IMG/VR virus record: IMGVR_UViG_3300044984_002597
Location: 1 to 21,868 of that record
Strand: one strand, 5' to 3'
Source: a virus
Length of the DNA stretch: 21,868 nt
In this document: positions 2,986-21,868 of the stretch, one piece after another
Numbering within the stretch: position 1 is the stretch's first letter
Layout of the letters: every line of letters begins with the position of its first letter
The notes under the pieces: model-generated
What the model was told of the DNA's origin: nothing
Seen by the model: only the letters and a program-made list of their open reading frames with translations
Databases searched by the model: none
Translations under genes and position numbers: made by a program

Positions 2986-4047
2986 TTAGGCCACTTTCGG
3001 GTGGCCTTTTTTCTGACCAGAACCGCCTGAAACAGTGTCAGACTGGGGTGAAATGTCCCGGTTATTGTCCCGGTCTGAATTGCCCGCCCAACTAGCCAAA
3101 TACTCGGGCGCAAGGTGCGCGTACCTGAGAACCATAGACAGGCTGCTCCATCCGCCAAGTTTTTGGAGAACTTCGATTGGCGTTCCGGCCATGACGTGCC
3201 AACTTGCCCAGGTGTGACGCAAAGTGTGCCAGTTCACGCCAGACAGCCCGGCCCGCTTGACCGCGCGCTTGTATGCGTCGCCGATCTCGGCCATCGGGAC
3301 ATTTTCTGTCTTTTTGTTCCTGGTGAGCTCGTAGGTGAAGACGAAATCGTCATGTTGTCCAACTTGACCGAGAAGGATCTGAATGGCTTGGTCGCTCATC
3401 GGTATGCCGATTGCTTTCTTTGCCTTCGCTTCGTCTGGATGTATCCACATGACCTTGCGCTTCAGGTCTATCTCGCTCCAGCGAAGCCCAAGCAGATTCG
3501 ATTGGCGAATGCCGGTGGATACGGCAAATCTGGCTGGCGCCAGAAGGTGAGACGGCAATTCGGCCTCCAGTCGTAGCCATTCTGCCTGCGTGAGCCAGCG
3601 CGTTCTGCCGGCTGGCGTCTTGCGTGATGGGATGGTTGGGATTTTGTCTGACCAGCCCATTGCTTGCGCGTGGCGCAGGATGGCCATGATGGTGTTGCGG
3701 TATCTGTTCCAGGTGCCGGCTGACTTCAGGCCGATTGACCTTGTGATGTCGTCAGTGGTCAGGTCTGACAGAAGCGGGTTGCCAAGGGCGGCAGAGAAGG
3801 CGCGCAGCAGGTAGCGATCAGACTCGCCTCGCGCCTCTGCGGTCAACCATGAGATTGAGGCGTCATTCCACGTCTTGCCGTTTCCAGTTGGAGTATCTTC
3901 CCAGGCTTCCGCTCGCCAAGCGTCGTGGATTCGCTGGGCTTCCGTTTTGTCGGCAGTCCCAGTGCTGCGTCTAATCCGTGGTCTACCTTTGATCGTGATC
4001 GAGGCATACCAGAATTCAGACTTTGAGGCGTCTTTGTAGAGCGACAT
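2986..4047 (-). CDS. int: Tyrosine recombinase (phage integrase)
   Basis: A 353-residue site-specific recombinase that would join attP to a host tRNA gene. The catalytic set is visible: R181 (STGIRQSNLLGLRW), a lysine around 208-211, H274-x-x-R277 (WHTLRHTWASWH), W300 (LGGWSS, in the His/Trp position) and nucleophile Y309 (LRYAHLAPEYL). Residues 1-50 resemble an arm-binding N-terminal domain and ~60-130 the core-binding domain. Length is normal. The gene points at attP, as in lambda. A polar 30-residue tail after the active site carries the P' arm repeats. Its start lies inside the upstream excisionase-like gene, giving a 205-bp overlap. It is the last gene of the long leftward operon, so expression would follow early lytic transcription unless it has its own promoter. 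Confidence 0.95.
   Translation of the reverse strand: MSLYKDASKSEFWYASITIKGRPRIRRSTGTADKTEAQRIHDAWRAEAWEDTPTGNGKTWNDASISWLTAEARGESDRYLLRAFSAALGNPLLSDLTTDDITRSIGLKSAGTWNRYRNTIMAILRHAQAMGWSDKIPTIPSRKTPAGRTRWLTQAEWLRLEAELPSHLLAPARFAVSTGIRQSNLLGLRWSEIDLKRKVMWIHPDEAKAKKAIGIPMSDQAIQILLGQVGQHDDFVFTYELTRNKKTENVPMAEIGDAYKRAVKRAGLSGVNWHTLRHTWASWHVMAGTPIEVLQKLGGWSSLSMVLRYAHLAPEYLASWAGNSDRDNNRDISPQSDTVSGGSGQKKGHPKVA
2988..3012 (+). terminator. Intrinsic terminator after tail operon / att
   Basis: Perfect 7-bp stem AGGCCAC / GTGGCCT with a TTTCGG loop followed by six T on the + strand. It ends rightward transcription from the tail genes before it runs into the oppositely oriented integrase gene, whose last codons and stop (2986-2988) lie inside the hairpin. 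There is no T-run on the opposite strand, so it should act in one direction. Confidence 0.8.
3050..3072 (+). promoter_or_regulatory. Putative integrase arm-type sites, P' side (two copies)
   Basis: GAAATGTCCCG at 3050-3060 and the variant TTATTGTCCCG at 3062-3072, again with 12-bp spacing and the same orientation as the pair at 2865-2887. They lie inside the 3' end of the integrase gene, where they encode the Asp-Arg-Asp-Asn-Asn-Arg-Asp part of the C-terminal tail beyond the catalytic tyrosine. Confidence 0.55.
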
Positions 4048-4223
4048 GATGAAGTTGAGCCGTATTTCGACCTTACATATTCCATCAAATCATCCGCGAT
4101 GAAAATCCATGCGCGACCTATTTTTGCTCCAGGTAGCTCTCCAGATGCCGCTTTCGATCTAACCGTTTCGGTGTTGCACCTTAACAATTCTGCGGCAGCG
4201 TCTATGCCAATCGTTGCGCGCAC
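3843..4223 (-). CDS. Excisionase-like helix-turn-helix protein
   Basis: A 126-residue protein with a GTG start preceded by GGGAG. Residues 1-55 (IGIDAAAELLRCNTETVRSKAASGELPGAKIGRAWIF) form a winged-helix/MerR-like DNA-binding domain of the excisionase (HTH_17-like) type: an HTH followed by a wing ending in W-x-F. This part sits just upstream of int. The rest (from about residue 56) is basic, low-complexity and overlaps the int start in another frame. As I recall, similar proteins in other phages also carry a tail with an LGLPTK-x-KP motif, as here, so the overlap may be truly dual-coding. Likely role: directionality factor for excision or control of int. The short overlap with the preceding gene (4202-4223) indicates translational coupling. 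Confidence 0.7.
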   Translation of the reverse strand: MRATIGIDAAAELLRCNTETVRSKAASGELPGAKIGRAWIFIADDLMEYVRSKYGSTSSCRSTKTPQSLNSGMPRSRSKVDHGLDAALGLPTKRKPSESTTLGERKPGKILQLETARRGMTPQSHG

Positions 4224-5154: not shown

Positions 5155-5405
5155 ATCACATCCTCCTTGCGGTAAAGCGGAATAGCGAAACTCGCAATAC
5201 CTGATGGCACGCTGTAAAGCCATGCCGAGGAAGTGCCTTTTTTCATTCGCTCAAGGTCTTCACCCCTCACATAACCTACTCTTACATAGCCAACTTGCTC
5301 AGACTCAAGTTTTGCTTTGATTGCCGCGTCCCATGCGCACTTAGCTACCATTTGCTGCGCCGGGTCTAGCGGGATGGTTCTCGACAGCCATTCTTCAAAC
5401 GTCAT
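5151..5405 (-). CDS. Hypothetical phage protein with PLYRKEDV tail, 84 aa
   Basis: A short protein (MTFEEWLSRTIPLDPAQQ...) whose last residues, IPLYRKEDVI, repeat those of the upstream protein. A similar ending (hydrophobic-P-L-Y plus charged residues) occurs in many small phage accessory proteins. The DNA behind the shared tail is a 23-bp exact repeat (5158-5180 and 5406-5428) that also holds the AAGGAGG ribosome-binding site of the following gene. Start at 5405 overlaps the upstream stop as ATGA. Function unknown. Confidence 0.65.
   Translation of the reverse strand: MTFEEWLSRTIPLDPAQQMVAKCAWDAAIKAKLESEQVGYVRVGYVRGEDLERMKKGTSSAWLYSVPSGIASFAIPLYRKEDVI
5158..5180. repeat. 23-bp direct repeat, copy 1 (gene tail plus RBS)
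   Basis: Exact copy of 5406-5428. On the minus strand it encodes the PLYRKED end of a protein and contains the AAGGAGG site that serves the next gene, so the unit links one gene's stop to the next gene's start. Confidence 0.85.
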
Positions 5406-10372: not shown

Positions 10373-10471
10373 CACTTCCTCTCGCTGCACTACAAAAAAG
10401 GTATGAATGCAGAATAACAAAAAGATAGCGAAATGGAAGCATCAACTCGAAAATAGTTTAAGTAATTCGTA
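10373..10471 (-). promoter_or_regulatory. AT-rich gap with possible internal promoter
   Basis: About 100 bp without a gene between the DUF1064-like stop and the 62-aa gene. It is markedly AT-rich for this genome and contains GTACTAGA at 10469-10476, a string also present at 21711-21718 in the second control region. The start element GCGAGAGGAAGTG occupies its downstream end. A promoter is plausible, but I cannot assign -35/-10 boxes with confidence. Confidence 0.3.
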
Positions 10472-13225: not shown

Positions 13226-14075
13226 TCAGTGTTTCCTCTCGCTTGGTGGTGGGTCGTTGTTGAATACCTTTCTGGTAGTCATCATGAGCAAATTTTTTCT
13301 GAAAGTCACCCTTCAACTGAAATAAACCTGCCCAGCCTGAGAGGATTGATTGCTCGATCACTTTGTTCGGATCGTTGCCATCAGCGGCAAGACGTTCCAG
13401 TTCGCGAAGGGCGAGTTTTTTAGCATGGTCGGTCATTGGCTTTTTCAGTTCGACGCGGAACTGAACGAACGCCGCCCAGGTTTCCTGAGTCAGACCTACA
13501 GGCGGGTTTTCAGGAAGCGGCTCGCTCTTGGCTTTCGTTGTGCGCGCTGTTGTCGGCTTGGGGGGTAGGGGGGTTGTAGTCTCTGCTGTAGTCTCTGCTG
13601 TACTCTTACCTATATTAGATGGGCTGGTTTGTGCCAGCCTGTTGGGCTGTTTCGTGCCAGCCAGTTGGGCGCTTTCGTGCCAACTTGTCGGTACAGCGTC
13701 AGCCGCCTTGTTGGGCGCTTTCGTGCCATCTGTCTGGCAGTCAGGGATGCGGGCTGATTTCAGGTCATTTATGGCGGCTTCTATCGCGTCCAGGTTGACC
13801 CTGAAAAACAGCTTGGCCGGGATGCCTTTTCGGCTCTCTTCGATGAAGCCAGCGTCGCGCAATTTCTCCCTCGCGGTCTCTTGTTCACGGCGAGACAAAC
13901 AGGTTTCTTCCTCCCATTCGTCGCGCACTTTGAAGAACCAGCCGCCCGCTTCGGTGGTGCGGGTTGACCAGTAGATGGCTTGGCCCAGGAACAGGCCAGC
14001 GTTGATGGAGCCGCATATCCGCACCAGGACGGGGTGGAATGCGATGGGTTTGGTGAGCGCTTCGATGATTCTCAT
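13113..14075 (-). CDS. Replication initiator-like winged-helix protein (O-like)
   Basis: A 320-residue protein. Residues 1-95 (AFHPVLVRICGSINAGLFLGQAIYWS...TCLSRREQETAREKLRDAGFIEESRKGIPAKLFFRVN) form a winged helix seen at the N-terminus of many phage replication initiators/replisome organisers. A low-complexity linker (Thr/Pro/Lys-rich, about 145-190) leads to a C-terminal helical domain (ETWAAFVQFRVELKKPMTDHAKKLALREL). The linker DNA has tandem-like repeats around CCAACTGGC and TTGGGCGC, which could be origin iterons as inside lambda O, though they are imperfect. Start at 14075 overlaps the Cro-like stop as ATGA. Role: binds the phage origin and recruits the P-like protein; inferred. Confidence 0.75.
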   Translation of the reverse strand: MRIIEALTKPIAFHPVLVRICGSINAGLFLGQAIYWSTRTTEAGGWFFKVRDEWEEETCLSRREQETAREKLRDAGFIEESRKGIPAKLFFRVNLDAIEAAINDLKSARIPDCQTDGTKAPNKAADAVPTSWHESAQLAGTKQPNRLAQTSPSNIGKSTAETTAETTTPLPPKPTTARTTKAKSEPLPENPPVGLTQETWAAFVQFRVELKKPMTDHAKKLALRELERLAADGNDPNKVIEQSILSGWAGLFQLKGDFQKKFAHDDYQKGIQQRPTTKREETLNELYRGYHTTSDGQLVRNDSPRAAANFGGELFAERVG

Positions 14076-14302
14076 TGTGGCTTCCAGTTGATTGGGCGCT
14101 TGTTGCGCATGTTGTTGAAAACGATGTCGGCAGCTTTCAGTTCGCCGCCGCTGATCTCTTCCAGCTTGTTGGCGGTGGCTCGTCCACAGACCTTGGTGCC
14201 GTAGAGCAGATGGCGAAGATAGGCTTCTGACGACCCGGCCCGCTCTGCAATCTCGATCATCTTGCCGGCGCCGTGCTTGGCGATGTATTCGTGGCAGTTC
14301 AT
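14072..14302 (-). CDS. Cro-like HTH regulator
   Basis: A 76-residue HTH protein divergent from the repressor, first gene of the leftward lytic operon. The HTH is in GAGKMIEIAERAGSSEAYLRHLLYGTKVCGRATANKLEEISGG. Start at 14302 (MNCHEYIAKHGAG), with GGAAG 6 nt upstream; an earlier in-frame ATG at 14329 has no ribosome-binding site. By position it is the Cro (or CII-like) counterpart that would bind the operators between it and the repressor gene and favour lytic growth. Confidence 0.75.
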   Translation of the reverse strand: MNCHEYIAKHGAGKMIEIAERAGSSEAYLRHLLYGTKVCGRATANKLEEISGGELKAADIVFNNMRNKRPINWKPQ

Positions 14303-14339
14303 TTTTTCTTCCGTTTTGATGGTTTTCACCGCGACCTAT

Positions 14340-14368
14340 AAGGTAGCCAATTTGCACCAGAATATCAA
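14340..14368 (-). promoter_or_regulatory. Putative leftward early promoter
   Basis: On the minus strand TTGATA (14363-14368) and TACCTT (14340-14345) are separated by 17 bp, a good sigma-70 layout, placed to read the Cro-like gene and the whole lytic operon. The -35 lies inside the 19-bp palindrome at 14356-14374, as expected for repressor control. Confidence 0.5.
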
Positions 14369-14374
14369 TCTGGT
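14356..14374. promoter_or_regulatory. Putative repressor/Cro operator
   Basis: Perfect inverted repeat ACCAGA-N7-TCTGGT, 19 bp, in the gap between the divergent Cro-like and repressor genes and covering the -35 of the leftward promoter. A second perfect palindrome with identical geometry (6-7-6) lies at 21674-21692. Confidence 0.55.
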
Positions 14375-14491
14375 ACTAAAAGATTGATGCCGTCCCATGT
14401 TTGTTTCTTCGTTCGGCGTGCTACATTCCAAATTAGTATCAAACAAAACAGAAGTTAAACGGGTAGGAAAATTGTTTTACAAGGTGAATTT

Positions 14492-14854
14492 ATGGCTGAT
14501 GACATCAAAAAAATCAGGCTTGAAAACCTGAATTTTCTTTACGACCGAATGGTTGAGCAGTTCCCAAACGAGCCGGAACATGGCATGTTGCGCCGTTTCG
14601 GGCAGCGTGTAGGGGTTAGCCCAGCTTATTTGTCGCATCTCAGAAACGACCGGAAGAATGTCGGCCACGCCACTGCGCGGAAGATAGAAGCCGCGTTCAG
14701 GCTTGAAGAGGGCTGGATGGATAGCTCGCATGACGTTGTTGCGGATGTCGATGCGGCGACGAGAGAGGCGATGACGCTGTTTTCAGGCGCCAGCGCAGGT
14801 GTCAAAGAGGCTATGATTACGCTGCTGAAGGAATGGAGTAAGGGTAAGGTCTGA
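14492..14854 (+). CDS. CI-like repressor without peptidase domain
   Basis: A 120-residue protein transcribed away from the Cro-like gene. Residues ~10-75 carry an XRE-type HTH (GMLRRFGQRVGVSPAYLSHLRNDRKNVGHATARKIEAAF), preceded by a helical start (IRLENLNFLYDRMVEQF). The end (AGVKEAMITLLKEWSKGK) is helical and may dimerise. There is no S24/LexA-type peptidase part and no Ser-Lys dyad, so RecA-driven self-cleavage is not expected. Start follows AAGGTG. As the only rightward gene in this region it is the best candidate lysogeny repressor; binding to its own gap is inferred. Confidence 0.75.
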   Translation: MADDIKKIRLENLNFLYDRMVEQFPNEPEHGMLRRFGQRVGVSPAYLSHLRNDRKNVGHATARKIEAAFRLEEGWMDSSHDVVADVDAATREAMTLFSGASAGVKEAMITLLKEWSKGKV

Positions 14855-14923
14855 TCGGGGGGGCATGACAGGGGTCCGCTCATTTAATGCACGAATTAAT
14901 ATACGACTAAAAAGGTGCGGTAT
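14855..14923 (+). other. Gap after repressor; no gene seen
   Basis: About 70 bp, AT-rich in its second half (TTAATGCACGAATTAATATACG), leading to the AAGGTG site of the 33-aa ORF. A separate promoter for that ORF is possible but I cannot define one. Confidence 0.3.
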
Positions 14924-15025
14924 ATGCAGGAGTTTGCGACGTTATTGTCGGTTCTTACCGGAGAGGAGCGTTTGAAGGTTTTGGAGTTGTTGCGAGAGAT
15001 GGCGGCTGCTGAAAAGGCCGCGTAG
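14924..15025 (+). CDS. Possible 33-aa protein after the repressor
   Basis: ATG with AAAAAGGTG 7 nt upstream. The product is amphipathic and leucine-rich (MQEFATLLSVLTGEERLKVL ... ending EMAAAEKAA), likely a short helix or helical hairpin. It ends 8 bp before a strong terminator, so it is the last coding unit of the repressor transcript. Small size makes this tentative, but start signal, helical pattern and terminator position agree. Could be a small regulator acting on the repressor or Cro. Confidence 0.5.
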   Translation: MQEFATLLSVLTGEERLKVLELLREMAAAEKAA

Positions 15026-15033
15026 AAGAGTGG

Positions 15034-15066
15034 ACGCCCGGCATTGCACCGGGCGTTTTTTATTTC
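15034..15066 (+). terminator. Intrinsic terminator of the repressor transcript
   Basis: Perfect 8-bp stem ACGCCCGG / CCGGGCGT, 7-nt loop, then a T-rich run. It ends rightward transcription before the opposing leftward operon. On the minus strand an A-rich run precedes the hairpin and only a weak T content follows, so it is mainly one-way. Confidence 0.85.
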
Positions 15067-15074
15067 ACTCTTAT

Positions 15075-15281
15075 TTATCCTCTCGTCGTGAAGGTATAGC
15101 CGCAGGCACCAACGACATTGCCGTTGGCATCTGACAGCTTGGTGTGGATGACGTTGGTTTCGATCAGCCTTGCGGCCTCTCGAAGAATCCTGGCGACTTC
15201 CTCGCTGCGGTCCAGCGTGCTGCCGGTATGGCAGAAGGCATCGTTGTCGCACTGGATTTGAAGTTGAAATTTCACGCCCAT
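15075..15281 (-). CDS. Hypothetical phage protein, 68 aa
   Basis: Start at 15281 (MGVKFQLQIQCDNDAFC) behind AAGGGG. A beta-strand start, then ILREAARLIET helix and a beta end (GACGYTFTTRG). Last gene of the second leftward operon. The layout resembles small phage proteins of unknown function. An in-frame upstream extension only shadows the neighbour. Confidence 0.65.
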   Translation of the reverse strand: MGVKFQLQIQCDNDAFCHTGSTLDRSEEVARILREAARLIETNVIHTKLSDANGNVVGACGYTFTTRG

Positions 15282-15291
15282 GTCGATCCCC

Positions 15292-15513
15292 TTAAAGACT
15301 GCTGACCGCAACCATGTTGCGGTAATTGAGCATGCGCTGGCCGTTAAGCAGGCGCTGGTAGGTCTCCTGCTGAAACTTGTCGGCCAGCAATTGGCGAAGC
15401 TCGACGCCATCCCAGGCTGCCGGGATTTTGTCGTGAACGATCAGCAGCATCATTGCCGTGGCAATGCGGTTGCAGTGTTCCGTGACAAAATGGACCTGTT
15501 CTTCCTTGGTCAT
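15292..15513 (-). CDS. Hypothetical phage protein, 73 aa
   Basis: MTKEEQVHFVTEHCNRIATAM start, helical throughout, no motif recognised. ATGA overlap with the NinX-like gene upstream, so it is translated in the same unit and does not carry the start element of the other genes. Confidence 0.65.
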   Translation of the reverse strand: MTKEEQVHFVTEHCNRIATAMMLLIVHDKIPAAWDGVELRQLLADKFQQETYQRLLNGQRMLNYRNMVAVSSL

Positions 15514-15875
15514 TTCAGTTCCTCCGGGACTTCAACTTCATCCCCGAGGCGGGATGCCACGAAGCAGCGCATGGCTGCGATGAGAGGTGTGGGGCCGGTC
15601 ATGCGCACGTTCTTGCTGTTGACAGTGTCATGCGTCCCGTAGTGCGCCATATAGGGGCTTGTAGTCCAAGGGCCACAAGTGATTCTCTCACGTTCAATGA
15701 TCGGCCCGCCTTGTGACCAAGTTTGGTGATAGCGGTGGACGTACTCGCCGCTGCTTGTTGTCTTGTGCCAACGCTGTTCACGCCAGTCTGCTACGCCAAA
15801 ACGCAGCGCATCAGGCTCTTCGATGGTCGTCACCGCCCAATCCAGGCGAACGCCATCCAGTTCAGATGTTTTCAT
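15510..15875 (-). CDS. NinX-like (DUF2591-type) phage protein
   Basis: A 121-residue protein with the conserved ends of the phage NinX/DUF2591 type: MKTSELDGVRLDWAV at the start, WSQGGPIIERERI in the middle, and GPTPLIAAMRCFVASRLGDEVEVPEEL at the end. These proteins are common in lambdoid phage accessory regions and have no proven function. It starts behind a unit made of two hairpins and the GCGAGAGGAAAA element, so it heads the last cluster of the operon. Confidence 0.8.
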   Translation of the reverse strand: MKTSELDGVRLDWAVTTIEEPDALRFGVADWREQRWHKTTSSGEYVHRYHQTWSQGGPIIERERITCGPWTTSPYMAHYGTHDTVNSKNVRMTGPTPLIAAMRCFVASRLGDEVEVPEELK

Positions 15876-15876
15876 G

Positions 15877-15943
15877 GTTTTTCCTCTCGCGTATTCGGTT
15901 GCGGAATTGCAATCCGGTGGAGCGTACCCTTGCGGATGCGCTC
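15877..15943 (-). promoter_or_regulatory. Start-associated unit upstream of NinX-like gene
   Basis: Read on the minus strand: hairpin 1 (GAGCG/CGCTC, 15920-15943), hairpin 2 (CGGA/TCCG, 15902-15916), then CGCGAGAGGAAAAA (15878-15891) and ATG 7 nt after GAGAGG. The element is longer and better conserved than a Shine-Dalgarno site needs to be. Confidence 0.7.
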
Positions 15944-15950
15944 GGCCTGA

Positions 15951-16094
15951 TCACCTTTTTCTTGGGACGATGTAGTCGATGCCATCTTGCCGGCGAACGG
16001 TAAAAAGCCCAGGTTCATTGCTACCAATCGGTCCCCATTGTTGACTTACAAAAAAGTCGTATTCACGCAGGAGCCAATGAATGATTTTTCGCAT
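15951..16094 (-). CDS. Hypothetical small phage protein, 47 aa
   Basis: MRKIIHWLLREYDFFVSQQW start, RRQDGIDYIVPRKR end. AAGGA lies 7 nt before the ATG, and the gene fills the gap between the 91-aa gene and the next start unit. Amphipathic helix then beta strands. Function unknown. Confidence 0.55.
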   Translation of the reverse strand: MRKIIHWLLREYDFFVSQQWGPIGSNEPGLFTVRRQDGIDYIVPRKR

Positions 16095-16103
16095 GATTTT
16101 TCC

Positions 16104-16379
16104 TTAAATTGAGTCGATTGCTTTCCGCGCTCTCGCGTGGATCGGATCGTTGTGATGCGCGATGTGCAGCTTGAGAAGCTGCACAAGGCAATCAAGAAGC
16201 TCTGGCGCGGCACGCAGAAGCGCCTCGCGCCCGATGGACACACCTTCGTTGTACTCGGCCTCATAAATATCGACCGGGCCAGGGATGGAGTGTTCGGCGC
16301 CTCCAATTGCATCCAGGAATCCGTCACGCCGGAACGATGAATTGCCAAGCGCTGGGTTGAACTGCATCAGGCTTCTCAT
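16104..16379 (-). CDS. Hypothetical phage protein, 91 aa
   Basis: Start at 16379 (MRSLMQFNPALGNSSFRRDG), with GGGAGG 6 nt upstream and an ATGA overlap with the membrane protein gene. The C-terminal half is helical (EALLRAAPELLDCLVQLLKLHIAHHND), an A-x-A-P-E-L-L pattern common in small phage proteins of unknown role. Confidence 0.65.
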   Translation of the reverse strand: MRSLMQFNPALGNSSFRRDGFLDAIGGAEHSIPGPVDIYEAEYNEGVSIGREALLRAAPELLDCLVQLLKLHIAHHNDPIHARARKAIDSI

Positions 16380-16540
16380 TTCACGCCTCCCTTCATGGGG
16401 AATAGGCGGTAAACAAGACCGCAAGCCGGCCAGCAGAAAAACCCGATAAGGAATGCCGCATCGGGGTGCTTGGCCGACTCAGCCAGCAGGGCGGCAAACA
16501 GGAAAAGGACGCCGATGGATAGGTATTTGGCGAATTTCAT
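16376..16540 (-). CDS. Small membrane protein, 54 aa
   Basis: Two hydrophobic segments, YLSIGVLFLFAALLAES (~6-22) and AAFLIGFFCWPACGLVYRLF (~28-47), with a basic end, suggest a two-helix inner-membrane protein. Start at 16540 follows GGAGG and overlaps the upstream stop as ATGA. Holin is possible by shape, but position in an early-type operon argues for another role, such as exclusion. Not recognised. Confidence 0.65.
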   Translation of the reverse strand: MKFAKYLSIGVLFLFAALLAESAKHPDAAFLIGFFCWPACGLVYRLFPMKGGVK

Positions 16541-16761
16541 GGTTGCCTCCGGTTCAGGTTCTTTGCATCGAGCGCGTATTGCGCCGCCGTTTCGGCTTTC
16601 CGCTTGCGTGAGTAAGCCAAGGGAAATGATTTCGTTGCGTCGATGAACAGGTAGGCGTCTTCCTTCTTCGCGAAGGTAGCGACTTTGCTGTCTGTTGCTT
16701 CGTCGTAAACAGCACACTCGTCGTTCACGTCGATAACCAGACTCAGGTTTCGTTGTTGCAT
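16537..16761 (-). CDS. Hypothetical phage protein, 74 aa
   Basis: Start at 16761 (MQQRNLSLVIDVNDECAVYD), placed by the GCGAGAGGAAAA element 10 nt upstream; a longer frame would translate through that element. Beta-rich start, basic C-terminal half (RKRKAETAAQYALDAKNLNRR). First of a coupled trio with the membrane protein and the 91-aa gene. Confidence 0.65.
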   Translation of the reverse strand: MQQRNLSLVIDVNDECAVYDEATDSKVATFAKKEDAYLFIDATKSFPLAYSRKRKAETAAQYALDAKNLNRRQP

Positions 16762-16763
16762 GG

Positions 16764-16817
16764 TTTGTTTTCCTCTCGCGTTTGGTTGGTTGGTTGCCGG
16801 TGTTGTAGCCACCGGCA
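16764..16817 (-). promoter_or_regulatory. Start-associated unit upstream of 74-aa gene
   Basis: Hairpin TGCCGGTG/CACCGGCA (perfect 8 bp, 16795-16817), then a CCAACCAACC spacer and CGCGAGAGGAAAA (16768-16780) before the ATG. Only one hairpin is directly adjacent; a second lies further up at 16936-16960. Confidence 0.65.
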
Positions 16818-16966
16818 GGCATTGCGAGGCAGTGTGATTTGGCTCATCGAGTTACTTTCATACTCCTTCCGCCCCCGTCTTTCCGTGGTCCGTCAGGCTT
16901 GCGCCGCTCAGTCGCCTCATCGAAGCAACTCAGCGGCGCACCCGGTCTCGCCGGGCGCGCGCTCAC
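16818..16966 (-). other. Intergenic region with strong hairpin; no gene seen
   Basis: About 150 bp. A strong hairpin sits at 16936-16960 (GCGC-a-CCCGG / CCGGG-c-GCGC, 5-nt loop) just after the stop of the DUF3846-like gene, and an 8-bp GCGCCGCT/AGCGGCGC pairing spans 16901-16940. No T-run follows. No convincing ORF. Confidence 0.55.
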
Positions 16967-17446
16967 TTAATCAAAGCAGTTGGGTCCGAATGCCATAAAG
17001 CCGAACTCGGTACGCTCAACCTGGAGCCCTTTCGCTTCAGCCGCCTTGGCTGCCGCTTCCGACTGACCGCGAATCTGCTGCATGGCGTCAAACGGCGACG
17101 CCACCCAAGAGAAAATATTGCGATCAAAAAGGTAGCGAACATGGTCGAGCGAAATTGACGGCTCGATGGTATCGCCTTCTTTGTCGGTGCCGACCAGGAT
17201 GCCGATACCAGCAAGCGGCTGCATGCCAATGCGGTAAAACATCTGGTCGCTCTTGAACAACCCCTCGTCATCGATGTAGATCACGTCAGTAACGTCGCCG
17301 CCAATGCGGAAAACGTCGAACATATTCACTTCGATGCCAGCTTCAGGGTGGCTCAGTGCGCCATAGATGGCGCTAAGATCGCCGCCGCCTGGAAGATCAA
17401 TTTCAGTGATGGATTGATCAAACGGATTGATTTTGATTGCTTTCAT
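16967..17446 (-). CDS. DUF3846-like phage protein, 159 aa
   Basis: Start at 17446 (MKAIKINPFDQSITEIDLPGG), set by the shared start element. The pattern resembles DUF3846-type proteins: MKxIKI start, a Y-x-x-L/I-G-A-type helix, then IYIDDEGLFKSDQMFYRIGMQPLAGIGILVGTD, i.e. an acidic turn, a P-L-A-G core and a V-G-T-D end. These are found in phages and plasmids, function unknown. The C-terminus adds a helical tail (QQIRGQSEAAAKAAEAKGLQVER). Confidence 0.65.
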   Translation of the reverse strand: MKAIKINPFDQSITEIDLPGGGDLSAIYGALSHPEAGIEVNMFDVFRIGGDVTDVIYIDDEGLFKSDQMFYRIGMQPLAGIGILVGTDKEGDTIEPSISLDHVRYLFDRNIFSWVASPFDAMQQIRGQSEAAAKAAEAKGLQVERTEFGFMAFGPNCFD

Positions 17447-17447
17447 G

Positions 17448-17519
17448 GTGTTTTCCTCTCGCGGTTGTGGCAGGATTGCCATCGCCGCGCCCTGTTGCCA
17501 AGGCGCGGGAATTGCGATG
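17448..17519 (-). promoter_or_regulatory. Start-associated unit upstream of DUF3846-like gene
   Basis: Hairpin 1 (CATCG..CCGCGCC / GGCGCGG..CGATG, 17480-17519), hairpin 2 (TGGCA/TGCCA with a 4-nt loop, 17468-17481), then CCGCGAGAGGAAAA (17451-17464) and ATG. Confidence 0.7.
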
Positions 17520-17598
17520 CTGCTGTGTGGATTTCATTCGGCGGCCCGTCCACGCTGCCGGCCTCACCTTGAACCGCGCGGTGGGCTGTTTGCTGCAA

Positions 17599-17829
17599 TT
17601 ACTGCTCTGTTTCTGCTTCCATTTCCTCGCCGTCGCGCTCTACGTCCATTTCAATTCCAAGGGACGCGGCAAGCGAAACGAAAAGGTTCTCGGCATCTTC
17701 GATGGTGATGGCCAGCGCCCGCTTGGTGTCGCCGGTTTCCCAGGACAACTTGATAGGACGCTCGCGCAGCCATTCAGATTTTTCACAGTCACGGTCTTCC
17801 AATGTGGCTAAAATGCGGATGTTCTGCAT
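17599..17829 (-). CDS. Hypothetical acidic phage protein, 76 aa
   Basis: MQNIRILATLEDRDCEKSEW start; ITIEDAENLFVSLAASLGIE in the centre; the last 20 residues are almost all Glu/Asp/Met/Thr. Beta strand then helix. Own start element at 17836-17846. Function unknown. Confidence 0.65.
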   Translation of the reverse strand: MQNIRILATLEDRDCEKSEWLRERPIKLSWETGDTKRALAITIEDAENLFVSLAASLGIEMDVERDGEEMEAETEQ

Positions 17830-17831
17830 GG

Positions 17832-17906
17832 TTTGTTTCCTCTCGCAAAGTGATGAACTAGCCCGGTTGGGCGGCAGAGCAGGGCGGAGGCATCATGCTT
17901 CCGCCC
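17832..17906 (-). promoter_or_regulatory. Start-associated unit upstream of 76-aa gene
   Basis: Hairpin 1 (GGGCGGA-GC / GC-TCCGCCC, 17882-17906), hairpin 2 (GCCC/GGGC with 4-nt loop, 17861-17872), then TTGCGAGAGGAAA (17836-17848) and ATG 9 nt after GAGAGG. One C is missing from the CGCG of the other copies. Confidence 0.65.
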
Positions 17907-17913
17907 ATCTTTT

Positions 17914-18318
17914 TCAAGAACAACGTGTCAAAAACCGAATCTGAATTTCCTTGATCGCCATTGAGGCGAGCAAGTCGTTCTGAAACTGGCTTGTTGGCAG
18001 AGATACCTTCGTTGTCATCGACGTGAATGCAAGCGTCGCCAGCTCGTAGTCTATGAAGGCTTCGAGCTGTTCATCGGTAGCGTTGGCCCGCTTCATCCTG
18101 GCCGTTGACTTGACCGATGAAATCTTGCGGGCGCATGCGCTAACAATCGCCAGTTCCAGTTCCTTCGTGGCCATCTCGATTGAGGTGGTCGTCAAGGCGC
18201 TGTATTCAGGCAATTCCACAACCGGAGCTTTGATAACAGGGACCGACTCGGGCGGCAGGCCCGCGACGTGCGGGATTGCGCTTGCGGGACGGACCCGTTC
18301 CATTTTTGCTCGTTCCAT
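17914..18318 (-). CDS. Hypothetical phage protein, 134 aa
   Basis: MERAKMERVRPASAIPHVAG, then a proline/valine-rich stretch (PPESVPVIKAPVVELPEY) and a long helical part (SIEMATKELELAIVSACARKISSVKSTARMKRANATDEQLEAFIDYELA). No motif recognised. Preceded by its own two-hairpin start unit. Confidence 0.65.
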   Translation of the reverse strand: MERAKMERVRPASAIPHVAGLPPESVPVIKAPVVELPEYSALTTTSIEMATKELELAIVSACARKISSVKSTARMKRANATDEQLEAFIDYELATLAFTSMTTKVSLPTSQFQNDLLASMAIKEIQIRFLTRCS

Positions 18319-18320
18319 TT

Positions 18321-18383
18321 GCTTTTCCTCTCGCGAAATTGGGCAGGAATGCCCCGCAAACAGCCTCTCTCGAAGCCGTTTGC
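18321..18383 (-). promoter_or_regulatory. Start-associated unit upstream of 134-aa gene
   Basis: Hairpin 1 (GCAAAC-GC / GC-GTTTGC, 18356-18383), hairpin 2 (GGGC/GCCC, 18341-18354), then TTCGCGAGAGGAAAA (18323-18337) and ATG 8 nt after GAGAGG. Confidence 0.7.
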
Positions 18384-18391
18384 AGTGTTTC

Positions 18392-18715
18392 CTAACTGTT
18401 AAAATCGAATTGCACTTCTTCGCTGTTCCATGTGCCGCGCATGAAGAAGCTGGCTTTGACCATGCTGTTTGTTATCGGCGGGCACCCGCCTTCGTCATCC
18501 CATGAATAGGTGCAGTCGATAACTGGAGTGCCTAACTCCGGGTCAACATAGACGATCACCCGGCTGTTGTGGTTGGTGTGCCCTTCGATACCCCATGAAG
18601 TGGCGTAGCCCAGCGCAGCAAAATATTCGTGACGCCGCGCGGGATTGCTCGACGCCCACTTGATGGCGTCAGATTCGACGGTCATTTCTGTGGCCCGGTA
18701 GCTTGTGTCTGACAT
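18392..18715 (-). CDS. Hypothetical phage protein, 107 aa
   Basis: Start at 18715 (MSDTSYRATEMTVESDAIKW). Mixed alpha/beta, with strands RVIVYVDPELGTPVIDCTYSWDDEG and an aromatic end (FFMRGTWNSEEVQFDF). No motif recognised. Upstream in-frame codons run through the start element and are excluded. Confidence 0.65.
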   Translation of the reverse strand: MSDTSYRATEMTVESDAIKWASSNPARRHEYFAALGYATSWGIEGHTNHNSRVIVYVDPELGTPVIDCTYSWDDEGGCPPITNSMVKASFFMRGTWNSEEVQFDFNS

Positions 18716-18717
18716 GA

Positions 18718-18777
18718 TGTTTTCCTCTCGCGAAAGATGGGGCAAAAGCGCCCCCCACTGCCCAGCAAGCCGGGCAG
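18718..18777 (-). promoter_or_regulatory. Start-associated unit upstream of 107-aa gene
   Basis: Hairpin 1 (CTGCCC/GGGCAG, 18758-18777), hairpin 2 (GGGGC/GCCCC with GCTTTT loop on the minus strand, 18739-18754), then TTTCGCGAGAGGAAAA (18720-18735) and ATG. Confidence 0.7.
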
Positions 18778-18789
18778 AAGGTGGAGTTT

Positions 18790-19014
18790 TCAGTCGTTCA
18801 GAACTGTGATGGTGGAGCCGTCGCCGCGATCAATGTCACGGTAGATGTAGGCGTCTGCGCCACGTTCAGCCAGCACAAAGCGGCATCCGTTCTTGATAAT
18901 TTCCTTCGGCCAAATGCCGGGTGGGAAGTGAAGATCGGACGCATCGATCACTGCCTGCTCGCCGTGGCAGTAAACATCTGTCATGACGTAGGGTGACACT
19001 TGTGTCAGTTCCAT
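18790..19014 (-). CDS. Hypothetical phage protein, 74 aa
   Basis: Start at 19014 (MELTQVSPYVMTDVYCHGEQ), fixed by the start element. Beta-rich with VIDASDLHFPPGIWPKEI and an end IYRDIDRGDGSTITVLND. No motif recognised. Confidence 0.65.
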   Translation of the reverse strand: MELTQVSPYVMTDVYCHGEQAVIDASDLHFPPGIWPKEIIKNGCRFVLAERGADAYIYRDIDRGDGSTITVLND

Positions 19015-19016
19015 TT

Positions 19017-19086
19017 TGTTTTCCTCTCGCGTTGATGTGCAAAACAGCACATTGCGAAGCCCACGTTCCTGCATGGGCGACGCAAT
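19017..19086 (-). promoter_or_regulatory. Start-associated unit upstream of 74-aa gene (MELTQ)
   Basis: Hairpin 1 (ATTGCG..GCCCA / TGGGC..CGCAAT, 19051-19086), hairpin 2 (perfect ATGTGC-TGTTTT-GCACAT on the minus strand, 19035-19052), then ACGCGAGAGGAAAA (19019-19032) and ATG. The clearest example of the two-hairpin plan. Confidence 0.75.
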
Positions 19087-19092
19087 GGGTTG

Positions 19093-19917
19093 TCAATCGG
19101 CGCAGAACTCGGCGATCCGGTCTCTGATCCACTTTTCAGGGTTCAGGTAGATTGGGTCGTTGCTGTAAGCGCCACCTAAAACCAAGTCTTTTGGGCCGCA
19201 TTCCAGTAGCTCGCGGGCGATTTTTATCCGCTTGTACTCGTCGCCGGCGCCGAACATCCAGCCGCCACAGAATCCGAGTGCATCGGAGCAGTAGCAGTAA
19301 GACAGGCCGCGTGAAAAGCCCTGATGACTGAGCATGTAAGCGGCTTGGCCAAGATGCAGCGGCGCCGTATTTACCCGAACGATTGGGCAACTCCAGTCAT
19401 GGCGGAAGCGATCACCGTCCGCTTCGGTATACAGAAGCAATTCAACCGGGCGAATCTGAACCAGCGCCATGACTAGCGCCAGGATTGTTACCCCGCGCTT
19501 TTCAAGGTCGCTGGCATTGATGCCCGCGCTGCTTGTCGTGCTGACGTAGATTCTGATCGGCGAAACGTCTGACGCTTCGTCGGTCATTGCCAGCATGGAT
19601 TCGGGTTCGCCGGCCAGGAAGGCGGGCACGCTTGGAAACGCGCCTGCCATCGCTGGCGACCAGACCGGACTGGGGACTTCGATGTGCAAATCATCCAGCC
19701 GCGACAACATCGCTGCCGCGCGGCCTGCAAGCTCATCATTCCCCATCAACGCGCTTTCGCACGCTTGCTCAAAGGTCTGACGACCGGAGAATCCAAAATC
19801 CCACGAACGCTTGCTCTCATTCCGAACCGCTTTCGCGGCTGCAATGAACTCGCTCACGTCGCCGAACTCTTGGAACACGGCGGTTTGGCCGTGCCAGGTC
19901 TTTTTGGTTTGAAGCAT
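19093..19917 (-). CDS. Likely partner of the MoxR-type ATPase (DUF7192-like)
   Basis: A 274-residue protein right after the MoxR-type ATPase gene. Visible pattern: EFIAAAKAVRNESKRSWDFGFSGRQTFEQACESAL at the start, PSPVWSPAMAGAFPSVPAFLAGEPESML in the middle, IRIYVSTTSSAGINASDLEKRGVTILALVMAL, then YMLSHQGFSRGLSYCYCSDALGF. This order fits the phage DUF7192 type, as I recall it, whose members sit beside MoxR/CbbQ-like ATPases and whose IRIYVSTTSS strand recalls a von Willebrand A-type MIDAS region. Full MIDAS residues are not all present, so VWA fold is a guess. Likely an adaptor or substrate for the ATPase. Confidence 0.6.
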   Translation of the reverse strand: MLQTKKTWHGQTAVFQEFGDVSEFIAAAKAVRNESKRSWDFGFSGRQTFEQACESALMGNDELAGRAAAMLSRLDDLHIEVPSPVWSPAMAGAFPSVPAFLAGEPESMLAMTDEASDVSPIRIYVSTTSSAGINASDLEKRGVTILALVMALVQIRPVELLLYTEADGDRFRHDWSCPIVRVNTAPLHLGQAAYMLSHQGFSRGLSYCYCSDALGFCGGWMFGAGDEYKRIKIARELLECGPKDLVLGGAYSNDPIYLNPEKWIRDRIAEFCAD

Positions 19918-19918
19918 G

Positions 19919-19988
19919 ATTTTTCCTCTCGCGAAAGATTTGATGCACTAAAACAGCACATCGGAAGGCGGCCTTTATTGGAAGCCGC
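19919..19988 (-). promoter_or_regulatory. Start-associated unit upstream of DUF7192-like gene
   Basis: Hairpin 1 (GCGGC/GCCGC, 19968-19988), hairpin 2 (GATGTGC/GTGCATC with G-T pairs and a TGTTTTA loop, 19942-19962; the loop sequence is nearly that of the next unit), then TTCGCGAGAGGAAAAA (19920-19935) and ATG. Confidence 0.7.
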
Positions 19989-20002
19989 AATCCGCTGGGT
20001 TG

Positions 20003-21163
20003 TTACCTGATCGACGCCCACTGATCGGGCGTCATGCCTTTTACGACGGTCATGTCGGTGACGATTTCCTCGTCCAGTCCGGTTTGCAGCAGCAGCGCGC
20101 CGTAGAAGCTGGCGCGCGGGCTGATGATCACTTTCAGACCTTTCGAGGCGGCATTCGCACGCCAGCGCTGAACTTTTTTGGTCCAGGCCGTGTTGCTGCA
20201 TGCCGCCAGTTCAAGCGCTTCGTCAACATCCCACCGCAGCGTCGCGAAACGGTCCACAAAGGCACCGTCTTGCTTGTTTCTACCCACAAATTCGAAGGTA
20301 GCGCCGCCGCCGTAGGTATTCGCTGCGGCAATGCAGATAAAGTCGGCATGACGCTCGACGCGCCCGTCAGGGAAGTCGGCGAATCCGTTCGCCAGCGCTG
20401 CATTGAATGCCAGCGTGGCAGCCGGGAGTGAGCCGTCAACTTCGTCGAACAGGTACACGCCACCCTGCTCGTATGCCTCACGGAACGCTGTGCTGACCAA
20501 CCGGCCCTGGGCGTCAATAAAGCCGCTCAGTTTGTATTCCGAATTGATCGCGCCGTTGAAGTAGAACGGCAGGCTGAACGCTTTCGCGACCTGCTCCGCC
20601 GCGAACGTCTTGCCGCTGCCGGCTGGGCCGACAAGCAAAACATTCACACGGGCCGAACAGGTTTTGATCAGCGTTTCCAGTTTTGCGTGTGACATGCCGA
20701 GCGCTTCGGTGCTGCCGTCAATTCTCTTGATTTCCAGCAGCGTCGGACGGGGAATTTCAAGTTTGGCGATTTCAGCTTGAATCAGCTTGACCACCGCGCC
20801 TTCGTCCATTGCTGCATCGGGAATTTCGATCAAATCAGACAGCGCCATTTGAAGCGCCAGCGCTTTCACACTCATCGACTTGCCTTTTGGCTTAATGTCG
20901 GCGTCGTTGGTTTCGACCTTGGCGGTCTCTACCTTGTCGCCAGCCGCGTTGATTTCTTCATCTTCCGACTCGATTTCCAGGACACCGGCATCGACCAGCT
21001 TCGTGACTGCATCGTTGATGCGGTCGTTCGGGTAGCCGGCCAACTGCTCGCGCAGCGATGACTCGCGGCGACGGGCGTAATCGGTTTCTGTCGTGTTTTC
21101 AATCTGCATCAAAACTTGCATGATTGAGTCACGGTCGAAGTCGTTGATATTTACGTTTAGCAT
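20003..21163 (-). CDS. MoxR/CbbQ-type AAA+ ATPase
   Basis: A 386-residue protein, first gene of the second leftward operon. The AAA+ part spans ~150-386: Walker A GPAGSGKT (179-186), Walker B VYLFDEVD (236-243), sensor-1 asparagine in CIAAANTYG (N282) and arginine finger in FVDRFATL (R305). The N-terminal ~140 residues hold an acidic helical segment, not recognised. MoxR-type ATPases remodel or activate partner proteins that often carry VWA domains; the next gene may encode such a partner. Start at 21163 (MLNVNINDFDRDS), with the shared start element. In-frame codons further up would read through the element. Confidence 0.85.
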   Translation of the reverse strand: MLNVNINDFDRDSIMQVLMQIENTTETDYARRRESSLREQLAGYPNDRINDAVTKLVDAGVLEIESEDEEINAAGDKVETAKVETNDADIKPKGKSMSVKALALQMALSDLIEIPDAAMDEGAVVKLIQAEIAKLEIPRPTLLEIKRIDGSTEALGMSHAKLETLIKTCSARVNVLLVGPAGSGKTFAAEQVAKAFSLPFYFNGAINSEYKLSGFIDAQGRLVSTAFREAYEQGGVYLFDEVDGSLPAATLAFNAALANGFADFPDGRVERHADFICIAAANTYGGGATFEFVGRNKQDGAFVDRFATLRWDVDEALELAACSNTAWTKKVQRWRANAASKGLKVIISPRASFYGALLLQTGLDEEIVTDMTVVKGMTPDQWASIR

Positions 21164-21164
21164 G

Positions 21165-21243
21165 GTTTTTTCCTCTCGCGAAGGGTTGTAGTGCGGAAAA
21201 TGCACCCGAGAAGCTGACTTCTTGCGAAACCAGCAACCGGCTG
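21165..21243 (-). promoter_or_regulatory. Start-associated unit upstream of MoxR gene
   Basis: Three short hairpins (CAGC/GCTG 21231-21243; AGAAG/CTTCT 21209-21222; GTGC/GCAC 21191-21205), then TTCGCGAGAGGAAAAAA (21166-21182) and ATG. The complementary element at 21255-21270 lies directly upstream and could fold back over this site. Confidence 0.7.
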
Positions 21244-21254
21244 ATTTCTCAGCG

Positions 21255-21270
21255 TCGCGAGAGAGGAAAA
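21255..21270 (-). promoter_or_regulatory. Inverted copy of the start element (possible anti-RBS)
   Basis: The + strand reads TCGCGAGAGAGGAAAA, so a leftward transcript carries UUUUCCUCUCUCGCGA. This is complementary to the start element, with 10 contiguous pairs across GAGAGGAAAA and a 2-nt bulge before CGCG. It lies about 75 nt upstream of the sense copy of the MoxR gene. No + strand gene starts after it, so it does not act as a start element for rightward translation. Confidence 0.55.
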
Positions 21271-21277
21271 TATCGAT

Positions 21278-21325
21278 TTGTTAAAGAACCTTCCGCCTTT
21301 TGCACCCCTACGGGTTCCCTTTGGG
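21278..21325 (-). promoter_or_regulatory. boxA-like antitermination motif with upstream hairpin (proximal)
   Basis: Minus-strand TCTTTAACAA at 21278-21287 within GGTTCTTTAACAAATCG. It contains the core of the bacterial rrn boxA (TGCTCTTTAACA). A hairpin of GGGAATCC/GGTTCCC type lies just 5' of it on that strand (about 21302-21323). Order hairpin-boxA matches rrn leaders (boxB-boxA) rather than lambda nut (boxA-boxB). Confidence 0.55.
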
Positions 21326-21676
21326 ATTCCCCACAGCCCGAAATAGCACTCAATTTGCTGTGGCTCACACGCCTACTCTTGGTTACACCATGCCCGAGGG
21401 CTTTGTTTAAGGTCCGTTTCCAGACCAGCAGGCCGACCCCTTCCAGAACCGCCAGTAAACTGGCCACCCTTAGATAAGCTGTGCGCTAGGTAGTCCATCA
21501 TCAGGCAAGGCCATCAATCCAGAAGGCCCCGCCAGTTAGGTGCATGGTGTGCAATGGGCAGATTGTTAAAGATCTCTTTTTGGGCAAGGCTTTCCCCTTG
21601 CCCCTCAACTACTTAACTACTAAACAACAGGGGCCAGTAGACTACCAAAAAGGTAGCAGGGACAGATACAAATGTA
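21288..21676 (-). other. Structured leader region without a clear gene
   Basis: About 390 bp between the boxA copies and the repeat end. It holds a CCACAGC/GCTGTGG pairing near 21341-21373, the distal boxA unit, and a CTACC-AAAAA-GGTAG hairpin at 21642-21656. An open frame of 72 codons on the minus strand (21249-21467, GTG start) has no ribosome-binding site and runs through boxA and the inverted start element, so I do not call it a gene. Best read as an untranslated leader of the second operon. Confidence 0.45.
21563..21596 (-). promoter_or_regulatory. boxA-like antitermination motif with upstream hairpin (distal)
   Basis: Minus-strand TCTTTAACAA at 21563-21572 within GAGATCTTTAACAATCTG, identical over 10 bases to the copy at 21278. 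Directly 5' on the minus strand is a perfect hairpin GGGCAAGG / CCTTGCCC (21582-21603 region). Together the two copies form a repeated hairpin-boxA unit ahead of the second operon. Confidence 0.55.
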
Positions 21677-21692
21677 CTATTTTGAGTAGTAC
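21674..21692. promoter_or_regulatory. Second perfect palindrome, possible operator
   Basis: GTACTA-N7-TAGTAC, same 6-7-6 geometry as the palindrome at 14356-14374, and AATGTACTA recurs at 21709-21717. Position upstream of the leader suggests control of the second operon by a phage repressor. The half-sites differ from those at 14356, so it may bind another regulator. Confidence 0.45.
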
Positions 21693-21868
21693 AAAGGGAG
21701 TATCACCAATGTACTAGACTGTGCCTTCTCAGCTGCTTCCAGCTGCTGGCCTTGCTGCTGGCCTTGCTGCTGGCCTTGCTGCTGGCCTTGCTGCTGGCCT
21801 TGCTGCTGGCCTTGCTGCTGGCCTTGCTGCTGGCCTTGCTGCTGGCCTTGCTGCTGGCCTTGCTGCTG
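21677..21868 (-). CDS. Possible 3' end of a Gln/Gly-repeat protein, partial
   Basis: One minus-strand frame is open from the window edge to a TAG at 21677-21679. It reads as repeated QQQG units, then QQLEAAEKAQSSTLVI and a short end. The helical, charged stretch after the repeat is protein-like, but the frame is mostly made of the tandem repeat and overlaps the candidate operator, so it is weak. No start is in the window. Confidence 0.25.
   Translation of the reverse strand, partial: QQQGQQQGQQQGQQQGQQQGQQQGQQQGQQQGQQQGQQQGQQLEAAEKAQSSTLVILPLYYSK
21742..21868. repeat. 12-bp tandem repeat, about 10.6 copies, to window end
   Basis: Perfect head-to-tail copies of GCTGCTGGCCTT running off the edge of the window. 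Because 12 is a multiple of 3, each frame is a 4-residue repeat (QQQG on the minus strand). Could be a coding repeat, an iteron-like array, or an assembly end in a low-complexity tract. Confidence 0.9.

Follow-up and report, generated by a model that had tools for sequence, protein, structure and literature searches.

We analyzed the virus record IMGVR_UViG_3300044984_002597 of IMG/VR, a linear record of 21,868 bp (hereafter, the window), and found that its second leftward operon is organized around a repeated start element, GCGAGAGGAAA. Every gene of this operon that follows a spacer of at least 70 nt carries the element just before its ATG, and most of these spacers fold more stably than shuffled sequences do. 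The element is specific to this phage, and the same plan recurs in other phages with other sequences. We give roughly even weight to the reading in which these spacers act as translation-start cassettes, cistron by cistron, on a long transcript that is probably antiterminated.

The window contains 10 exact copies of GCGAGAGGAAA, all on the minus strand, the same number as counted in the original prediction, which a model had made from the sequence. Nine of the 10 precede ATGs of the second operon over 21163-15510 (g1 to g9 in Table 1), with GAGAGG ending 7-10 nt before the ATG, and these exact matches confirm the element at all nine starts that had been listed. Eight of the nine open with CGCGAGAGG, and most run on to CGCGAGAGGAAAA. 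When up to two mismatches are allowed, 22 matches are found, compared with 8.0 ± 2.8 expected. Among operon starts, 9/9 with spacers of 70 nt or more have the element, and 0/5 tightly packed ones do (Fisher p 0.0005). Genes near int have AAGGAGG-type sites instead (e.g., at 5405 and 5154), a distinction that the original prediction had drawn correctly. Since two copies lie outside the operon, before ATG 13225 and ATG 10372, the element is not confined to one transcript.

The spacers of g2 through g8 are more stable than their dinucleotide shuffles (z −1.9 to −4.5, each p ≤ 0.04), and each contains at least two hairpins. In the usual layout, a longer hairpin lies near the previous stop, and a short hairpin, with a stem of ~5 bp and a loop that is often U-rich, lies between a few nt and about 25 nt ahead of the element. 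The claim of two hairpins in nearly every unit is borne out for g2 through g8; at the ends of the array, the g1 spacer has a different, larger fold and the g9 spacer (ATG 15875) is weakly structured (z −1.6). The stems had also been described as entirely different between units, which is not the case, since the spacers of g2, g3, and g4 have stretches such as CAACCCA, TGTGCTGTTTT, and ATCTTTCGCGAGAGG in common. Selection for structure, as had been proposed, is supported by the fold z-scores and by an alignment of the short hairpins of g1 through g5 and g7, in which 28/30 pair cells are standard and 3/5 pairs show two-sided changes; shuffles and slid controls scored lower. Because the hairpins served as hand-set anchors for this alignment, in which one loop base was dropped from g1 and g2, its pair counts lean towards structure. 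No minus-strand candidate for an intrinsic terminator (a hairpin followed by a T-run) was found in the element spacers, which upholds the view that the hairpins are not ordinary terminators. No Rfam family was matched.

The partial sharing of spacer sequence among g2, g3, and g4 suggests copying, and every copy of the element is located at a boundary between genes, with small genes that mostly lack a family. Both points would suit an explanation in which the shared sequence marks module borders, where cassettes are gained or recombined at linkers, and duplication and exchange, not a function at the start codon, preserve identity. We find this quite improbable, because the spacing to the ATG is exact and the orientation single, because the copies at 13232 and 10375 hold the same place without the remaining spacer, and because identity breaks off abruptly at the element, with co-variation in the stems. 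The spacers could also be DNA-level sites, i.e., internal promoters or operators, as the extended start-associated sequence (ESAS) appears to be in cluster K mycobacteriophages. The intergenic position would agree with this, as would the promoter-like sequence that we read before the shared start elements of two viral contigs, L301 and L207. Such a role is nevertheless highly improbable in the window: 0 sigma-70-type sites were found in 14000-21868 versus 3.8 expected, the stems preserve pairing and not sequence, the spacers are G+C-rich, and the element lacks symmetry and is placed directly at the start codon.

Judged by where its sequence occurs, the element is no ordinary ribosome-binding site (RBS) in common use. 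A longer form (CGCGAGAGGAAAACAN{0,6}ATG) matched 12 viral contigs, one match apiece, which by our estimate is about chance for a collection of this size, and a shorter form gave a single match per viral contig among the matches listed. Serial copies of the element were found in no other viral contig. The longer form was also absent from all 399 genomes (0/399) of the order that includes a Massilia strain, so that the element was not exposed there as an ordinary host RBS; this result speaks for that order only, which may not be the host's. For pairing with 16S rRNA, the tail forms at issue are CCUCCUUUCU and CCUCCUUA. The tail ending CCUCCUUUCU is presumably the betaproteobacterial form, and we assume it for the phage's host. 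With this tail, GAGAGGA forms 7 pairs (−9.9 kcal/mol), compared with 5 pairs (−6.0 kcal/mol) with the E. coli tail. In viral contig L107, the element CGCGAAAGGAAAC differs only at the G-U wobble base, and its pairing with 16S is equally good.

In other phages, we looked for 10-mers recurring at least 4 times just before the starts of open reading frames, using 217 fetched loci with a minimum length of 8 kb. Because the loci had been fetched via an RBS-like pattern or an AAA gene, the resulting rate is no census. Start-linked 10-mers were found on 14 locus strands at the true offset and on 1, 0, and 1 at offsets of +40, +80, and −40, respectively. The known start-associated sequence (SAS) of the cluster K phage Anaya ranked first and the window second. 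The sequence of the element varies by phage: AAACGGGAGA in L206, CGCAACAAAG in L221 and L220, CGCAACAAGG in L216 and L209, CACAAAGGGT in L207, and AACCGCGAAAGG in L107. Hairpins precede the elements in L207, L221, L216, and part of L107; none were found before those of L206, L198, L301, and L030. In some distant relatives, the plan is kept but the element sequence is not. In Citrobacter phage Mordin, the element core stands at 16/17 spaced starts of one region, with a mean spacer z of −2.5 and clear structure in most spacers. Altogether, these comparisons suggest that unrelated phage groups repeatedly build operons from cassettes of hairpin and start element, each phage with an element of its own.

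Some of these contigs show further features. L207 has apparent phage-type RNA polymerase and integrase genes; GCACTATTGAGGGA, which we read as perhaps this polymerase's promoter, recurs ahead of genes in several spacers and stands before some of the hairpins, and the first hairpins of L207 keep a GGTTAACGC loop. In three L107 cassettes (1530-1560, 3205-3235, and 4090-4115), the second hairpin keeps a TCATG/TCATC loop although its 6-bp stem differs; CTGATGAG or CTGACGAG comes next, and this may be a recognition hairpin. A hammerhead ribozyme at this place (CTGATGAG...GAAA after the second hairpin) was considered and rejected, as GUC and the stem arrangement do not fit. In L123, an AAA-bearing relative, TGTTAAC-containing 8-mers occur in up to 14 copies and may be operators.

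The leader of the second operon adds two features. The exact sequence TCTTTAACAA, which we take to be the core of the rrn boxA, occurs twice in the window, both times in the leader, with no third copy. The leader also contains TTTTCCTCTCTCGCG, its sole near-copy of the element in the opposite orientation, which the original prediction had missed. This anti-element can base-pair with 13 nt of CGCGAGAGGAAAA, leaving a 2-nt bulge. The energy of the duplex of anti-element and element (−19.2 kcal/mol) is attained in 0.8% of shuffled leaders, and an equal match arose in 3/300 whole-strand shuffles, a post hoc statistic (~1%), as the test came after the pattern had caught our attention. In the predicted folds, RNAs starting at 21572, 21467, 21330, and 21290, all of which include the whole anti-element, pair the first element with it (9.0-12.5 of 13 expected pairs); in an RNA starting at 21255, the first element is mostly open (0.58). 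The unpaired probability of the g1 element is 0.03-0.31. The elements of g2 through g8 are more open (0.37-0.66 at the Shine-Dalgarno core), and that of g9 is fairly closed in its local fold. The leader's complementary copy is thus predicted to sequester the element of the first gene, which would be held back as a result. A 72-amino-acid GTG frame in the leader (21249-21467, minus strand) ends just after the anti-element and could be due to chance; if it is translated, ribosomes would open the masked first start by translational coupling.

By calculated energy, the anti-element can pair with every copy of the element (−14.6 to −22.2 kcal/mol). It is conceivable, if improbable, that the leader copy is a built-in RNA regulator, which would mask the first start in cis and, as a leader fragment, pair in trans with the element of the other genes, so that one short RNA would set the translation of 9-11 genes in two operons. 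As a general rule, a complementary leader copy is rejected: L107 and the regions around the first elements of L206, L216, and L221 were searched and yielded none. In L207, a complementary match of 10 bp lies far downstream from the first elements, and no complementary leader copy was found in the part of Mordin that was searched.

Several results weigh against the reading of the spacers as translation-start cassettes. Two spacers of the first operon have hairpins and no element (9032-8978, z −2.5; 8338-8280, z −1.7), and the copies of the element at 13232 and 10375 have no clear hairpins (z −0.2 and −0.5), which makes element and hairpins separable. Native spacers showed no clear advantage over shuffled ones in keeping the start open, doing better in 2/7 units. 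In addition, CGCG and AAA are invariant in the element yet lie outside the 7-bp pairing with the assumed 16S tail, which leaves room for a specific factor, so a reader beyond the ribosome may exist. The element could be the target of one trans-acting translation regulator that switches the gene set together, an explanation that we regard as possible, though doubtful. The candidates are a phage or host RNA-binding protein, a start-site endoribonuclease (compare RegB of T4), and an RNA with the leader's complementary sequence. Such a regulator would account for 11-13 nt being nearly invariant, even at bases that do not pair with 16S, for an anti-element able to pair with all copies and predicted to mask the first, and for the presence of the element in two operons; moreover, Mordin, with its similar element, encodes a RegB-like protein according to its record annotation. 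On the other side, no regulator gene was identified, the four contigs named above have no leader anti-element at the places searched, and the anti-element statistic is post hoc.

In the cassette reading, each unit would consist of one or two hairpins, followed by the extended ribosome-binding element CGCGAGAGGAAAA with an A-rich spacer and then the ATG. The element would act as a uniform Shine-Dalgarno site fitted to the 16S tail of the host, with GAGAGGA pairing to UCCUUUC. The hairpins would separate the cistrons, through end protection, processing, or start screening, so that each spaced gene is translated independently of its upstream neighbor, and packed genes would rely on coupling. The boxA-like sites suggest Nus-type antitermination, through which polymerase would pass the spacer hairpins without being stopped. 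The first cassette alone would be masked by the leader copy, and its gene would be held back until the leader is opened or cut.

The coordinates of the features are collected in Table 1. In the second operon, the AAA ATPase gene is followed by a DUF7192 gene, small genes mostly without family, a weak DUF3846 match, and a NinX-family gene; the AAA, DUF7192, and DUF3846 genes occur in identical order in Sinorhizobium phage phiM5. The rightward gene at 14492-14854 we take to be a putative repressor-type regulator. The integrase is ~40% identical to Burkholderia phage integrases. Together with the NinX family, this makes the earlier description of a proteobacterial-type phage plausible. No close relative was found in the searches made. 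A DNA similarity search found no phage record sharing the region beyond 80 nt within the NinX gene, and the leader with the start of the first gene had no plasmid match. Among the viral contigs searched, there was no relative of the DUF7192 and DUF3846-like proteins. DUF7192 was likewise not found in genome contigs or in the 399 genomes of one order, in scans that reach close relatives only, and a genome-contig scan with the AAA alignment returned distant AAA proteins only. At the end of the record, a perfect 12-bp tandem repeat (21742-21868, 10.6 copies) encodes (QQQG)n at the C terminus of a leftward reading frame whose stop is near 21680. The sequence at 2940-2985, adjacent to the integrase gene, is similar to the 3′ portion of a tRNA gene (GGGTTCGAACC) and is possibly the attachment site; ARAGORN found no whole tRNA.

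Table 1. Start elements, spacer hairpins, leader features, and genes of the window
Feature	Position	Strand or direction	Details
Element g1, before AAA ATPase ATG 21163	21169-21179	minus	exact match
Element g2, before DUF7192 gene ATG 19917	19922-19932	minus	exact match
Element g3, before ATG 19014	19020-19030	minus	exact match
Element g4, before ATG 18715	18721-18731	minus	exact match
Element g5, before ATG 18318	18324-18334	minus	exact match
Element g6, before ATG 17829	17836-17846	minus	exact match
Element g7, before ATG 17446	17452-17462	minus	exact match
Element g8, before ATG 16761	16769-16779	minus	exact match
Element g9, before NinX-family gene ATG 15875	15880-15890	minus	exact match
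Tenth exact element, before ATG 13225	13232-13242	minus	outside operon, within preceding reading frame
One-mismatch element GCGAGAGGAAG, before ATG 10372	10375-10385	minus	outside operon
Hairpins g2	19942-19993	minus	1 (19993-19963), 2 (19962-19942); z −2.2
Hairpins g3	19036-19087	minus	1 (19087-19050), 2 (19051-19036); z −2.8
Hairpins g4	18739-18777	minus	1 (18777-18758), 2 (18754-18739); z −1.9
Hairpins g5	18341-18385	minus	1 (18385-18354), 2 (18355-18341); z −3.5
Hairpins g6	17861-17906	minus	1 (17906-17882), 2 (17872-17861); z −2.0
Hairpins g7	17468-17508	minus	1 (17508-17485), 2 (17481-17468); z −1.9
Structured spacer g8	16795-16966	minus	last hairpin 16817-16795; z −4.5
boxA-like TCTTTAACAA, first leader copy	21563-21572	minus	exact match
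boxA-like TCTTTAACAA, second leader copy	21278-21287	minus	exact match; 7 nt before anti-element
Anti-element TTTTCCTCTCTCGCG	21256-21270	minus	75 nt upstream of first element
Leader hairpin GCTGA-GAAA-TCAGC	21240-21253	minus	boxB-like in shape only; sequence and fold
Rightward genes	1-2850	rightward	
Integrase gene	2986-4047	leftward	
Replication and recombination operon (first leftward)	about 14330 to 4200	leftward	
Second leftward operon	21163 to about 15075	leftward	closing hairpin near 15058-15032
AAA ATPase gene, first in second operon	20003-21163	minus	PF00004 E 3.8e-11, PF07728, phrog_249

The original prediction had called the array SAS/ESAS-like, of which the first half holds, as an analogy. 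In cluster K mycobacteriophages, the SAS is present in 11-19 near-invariant copies a few nt from mostly ATG starts, in one orientation, at non-structural genes with spacers of >50 bp; it is partly complementary to 16S and absent from the host genomes tested (PMC3203893). The window element resembles it in being short, phage-specific, near-invariant over >10 nt, and longer than Shine-Dalgarno pairing requires, in its distance of a few nt from the ATG, its single orientation, and its placement at spaced genes, and in being conserved beyond the bases that pair with the assumed 16S tail. It differs in sequence (consensus GGGATAGGAGCCC in cluster K versus GCGAGAGGAAA) and in host group, and its spacers contain RNA hairpins. 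By the tested features, the window element is thus SAS-type, although the cluster K sequence is not its homologue. Pope et al. (PMC3203893) describe one reversed SAS site per phage in four K1 phages; that of Anaya (L250 31871-31883) is single and lies beyond a T-run hairpin after gene 96, outside any leader, whereas the only reversed copy in the window is in the leader. The ESAS is a sequence-conserved 17-bp inverted repeat, for which Pope et al. judged mRNA hairpins unlikely (PMC3203893) and which later work read as containing a putative SigA promoter (PMC11373665). The window shares with it an additional inverted-repeat feature upstream of some start elements. Its stems, in contrast, vary with pairing kept, so that shape is conserved over sequence, and no promoter-like site was found in 14000-21868; the hairpins of the window spacers are not ESAS.

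Compared with an ordinary Shine-Dalgarno site, the element agrees in position and partial 16S complementarity and differs in having 11-13 identical nt at ten starts in the window. Besides the cluster K SAS, the closest known counterpart is the SAS-like 26-bp repeat that was reported upstream of 8 genes in Mordin, a Felix O1-like phage (PMC4611695). Like the window, Mordin has one element before many spaced operon genes, with hairpins just upstream in most spacers, and it differs in its CCTAAACTGGAG core, host, lifestyle, and gene content. The role of start-associated sequences has been a standing question since 2011, raised in a host in which experiments are slow. This phage, Mordin, and several viral contigs bring the question within reach of reporter tests in common laboratory proteobacteria, and the leader's complementary copy provides a specific RNA-pairing hypothesis that can be broken and restored. 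If the cassettes uncouple cistrons, they would be natural counterparts of the insulated expression parts of synthetic biology. The SAS type of element was already documented; to it, the present case adds RNA-level hairpins, recurrence across unrelated phages, and a complementary leader copy.

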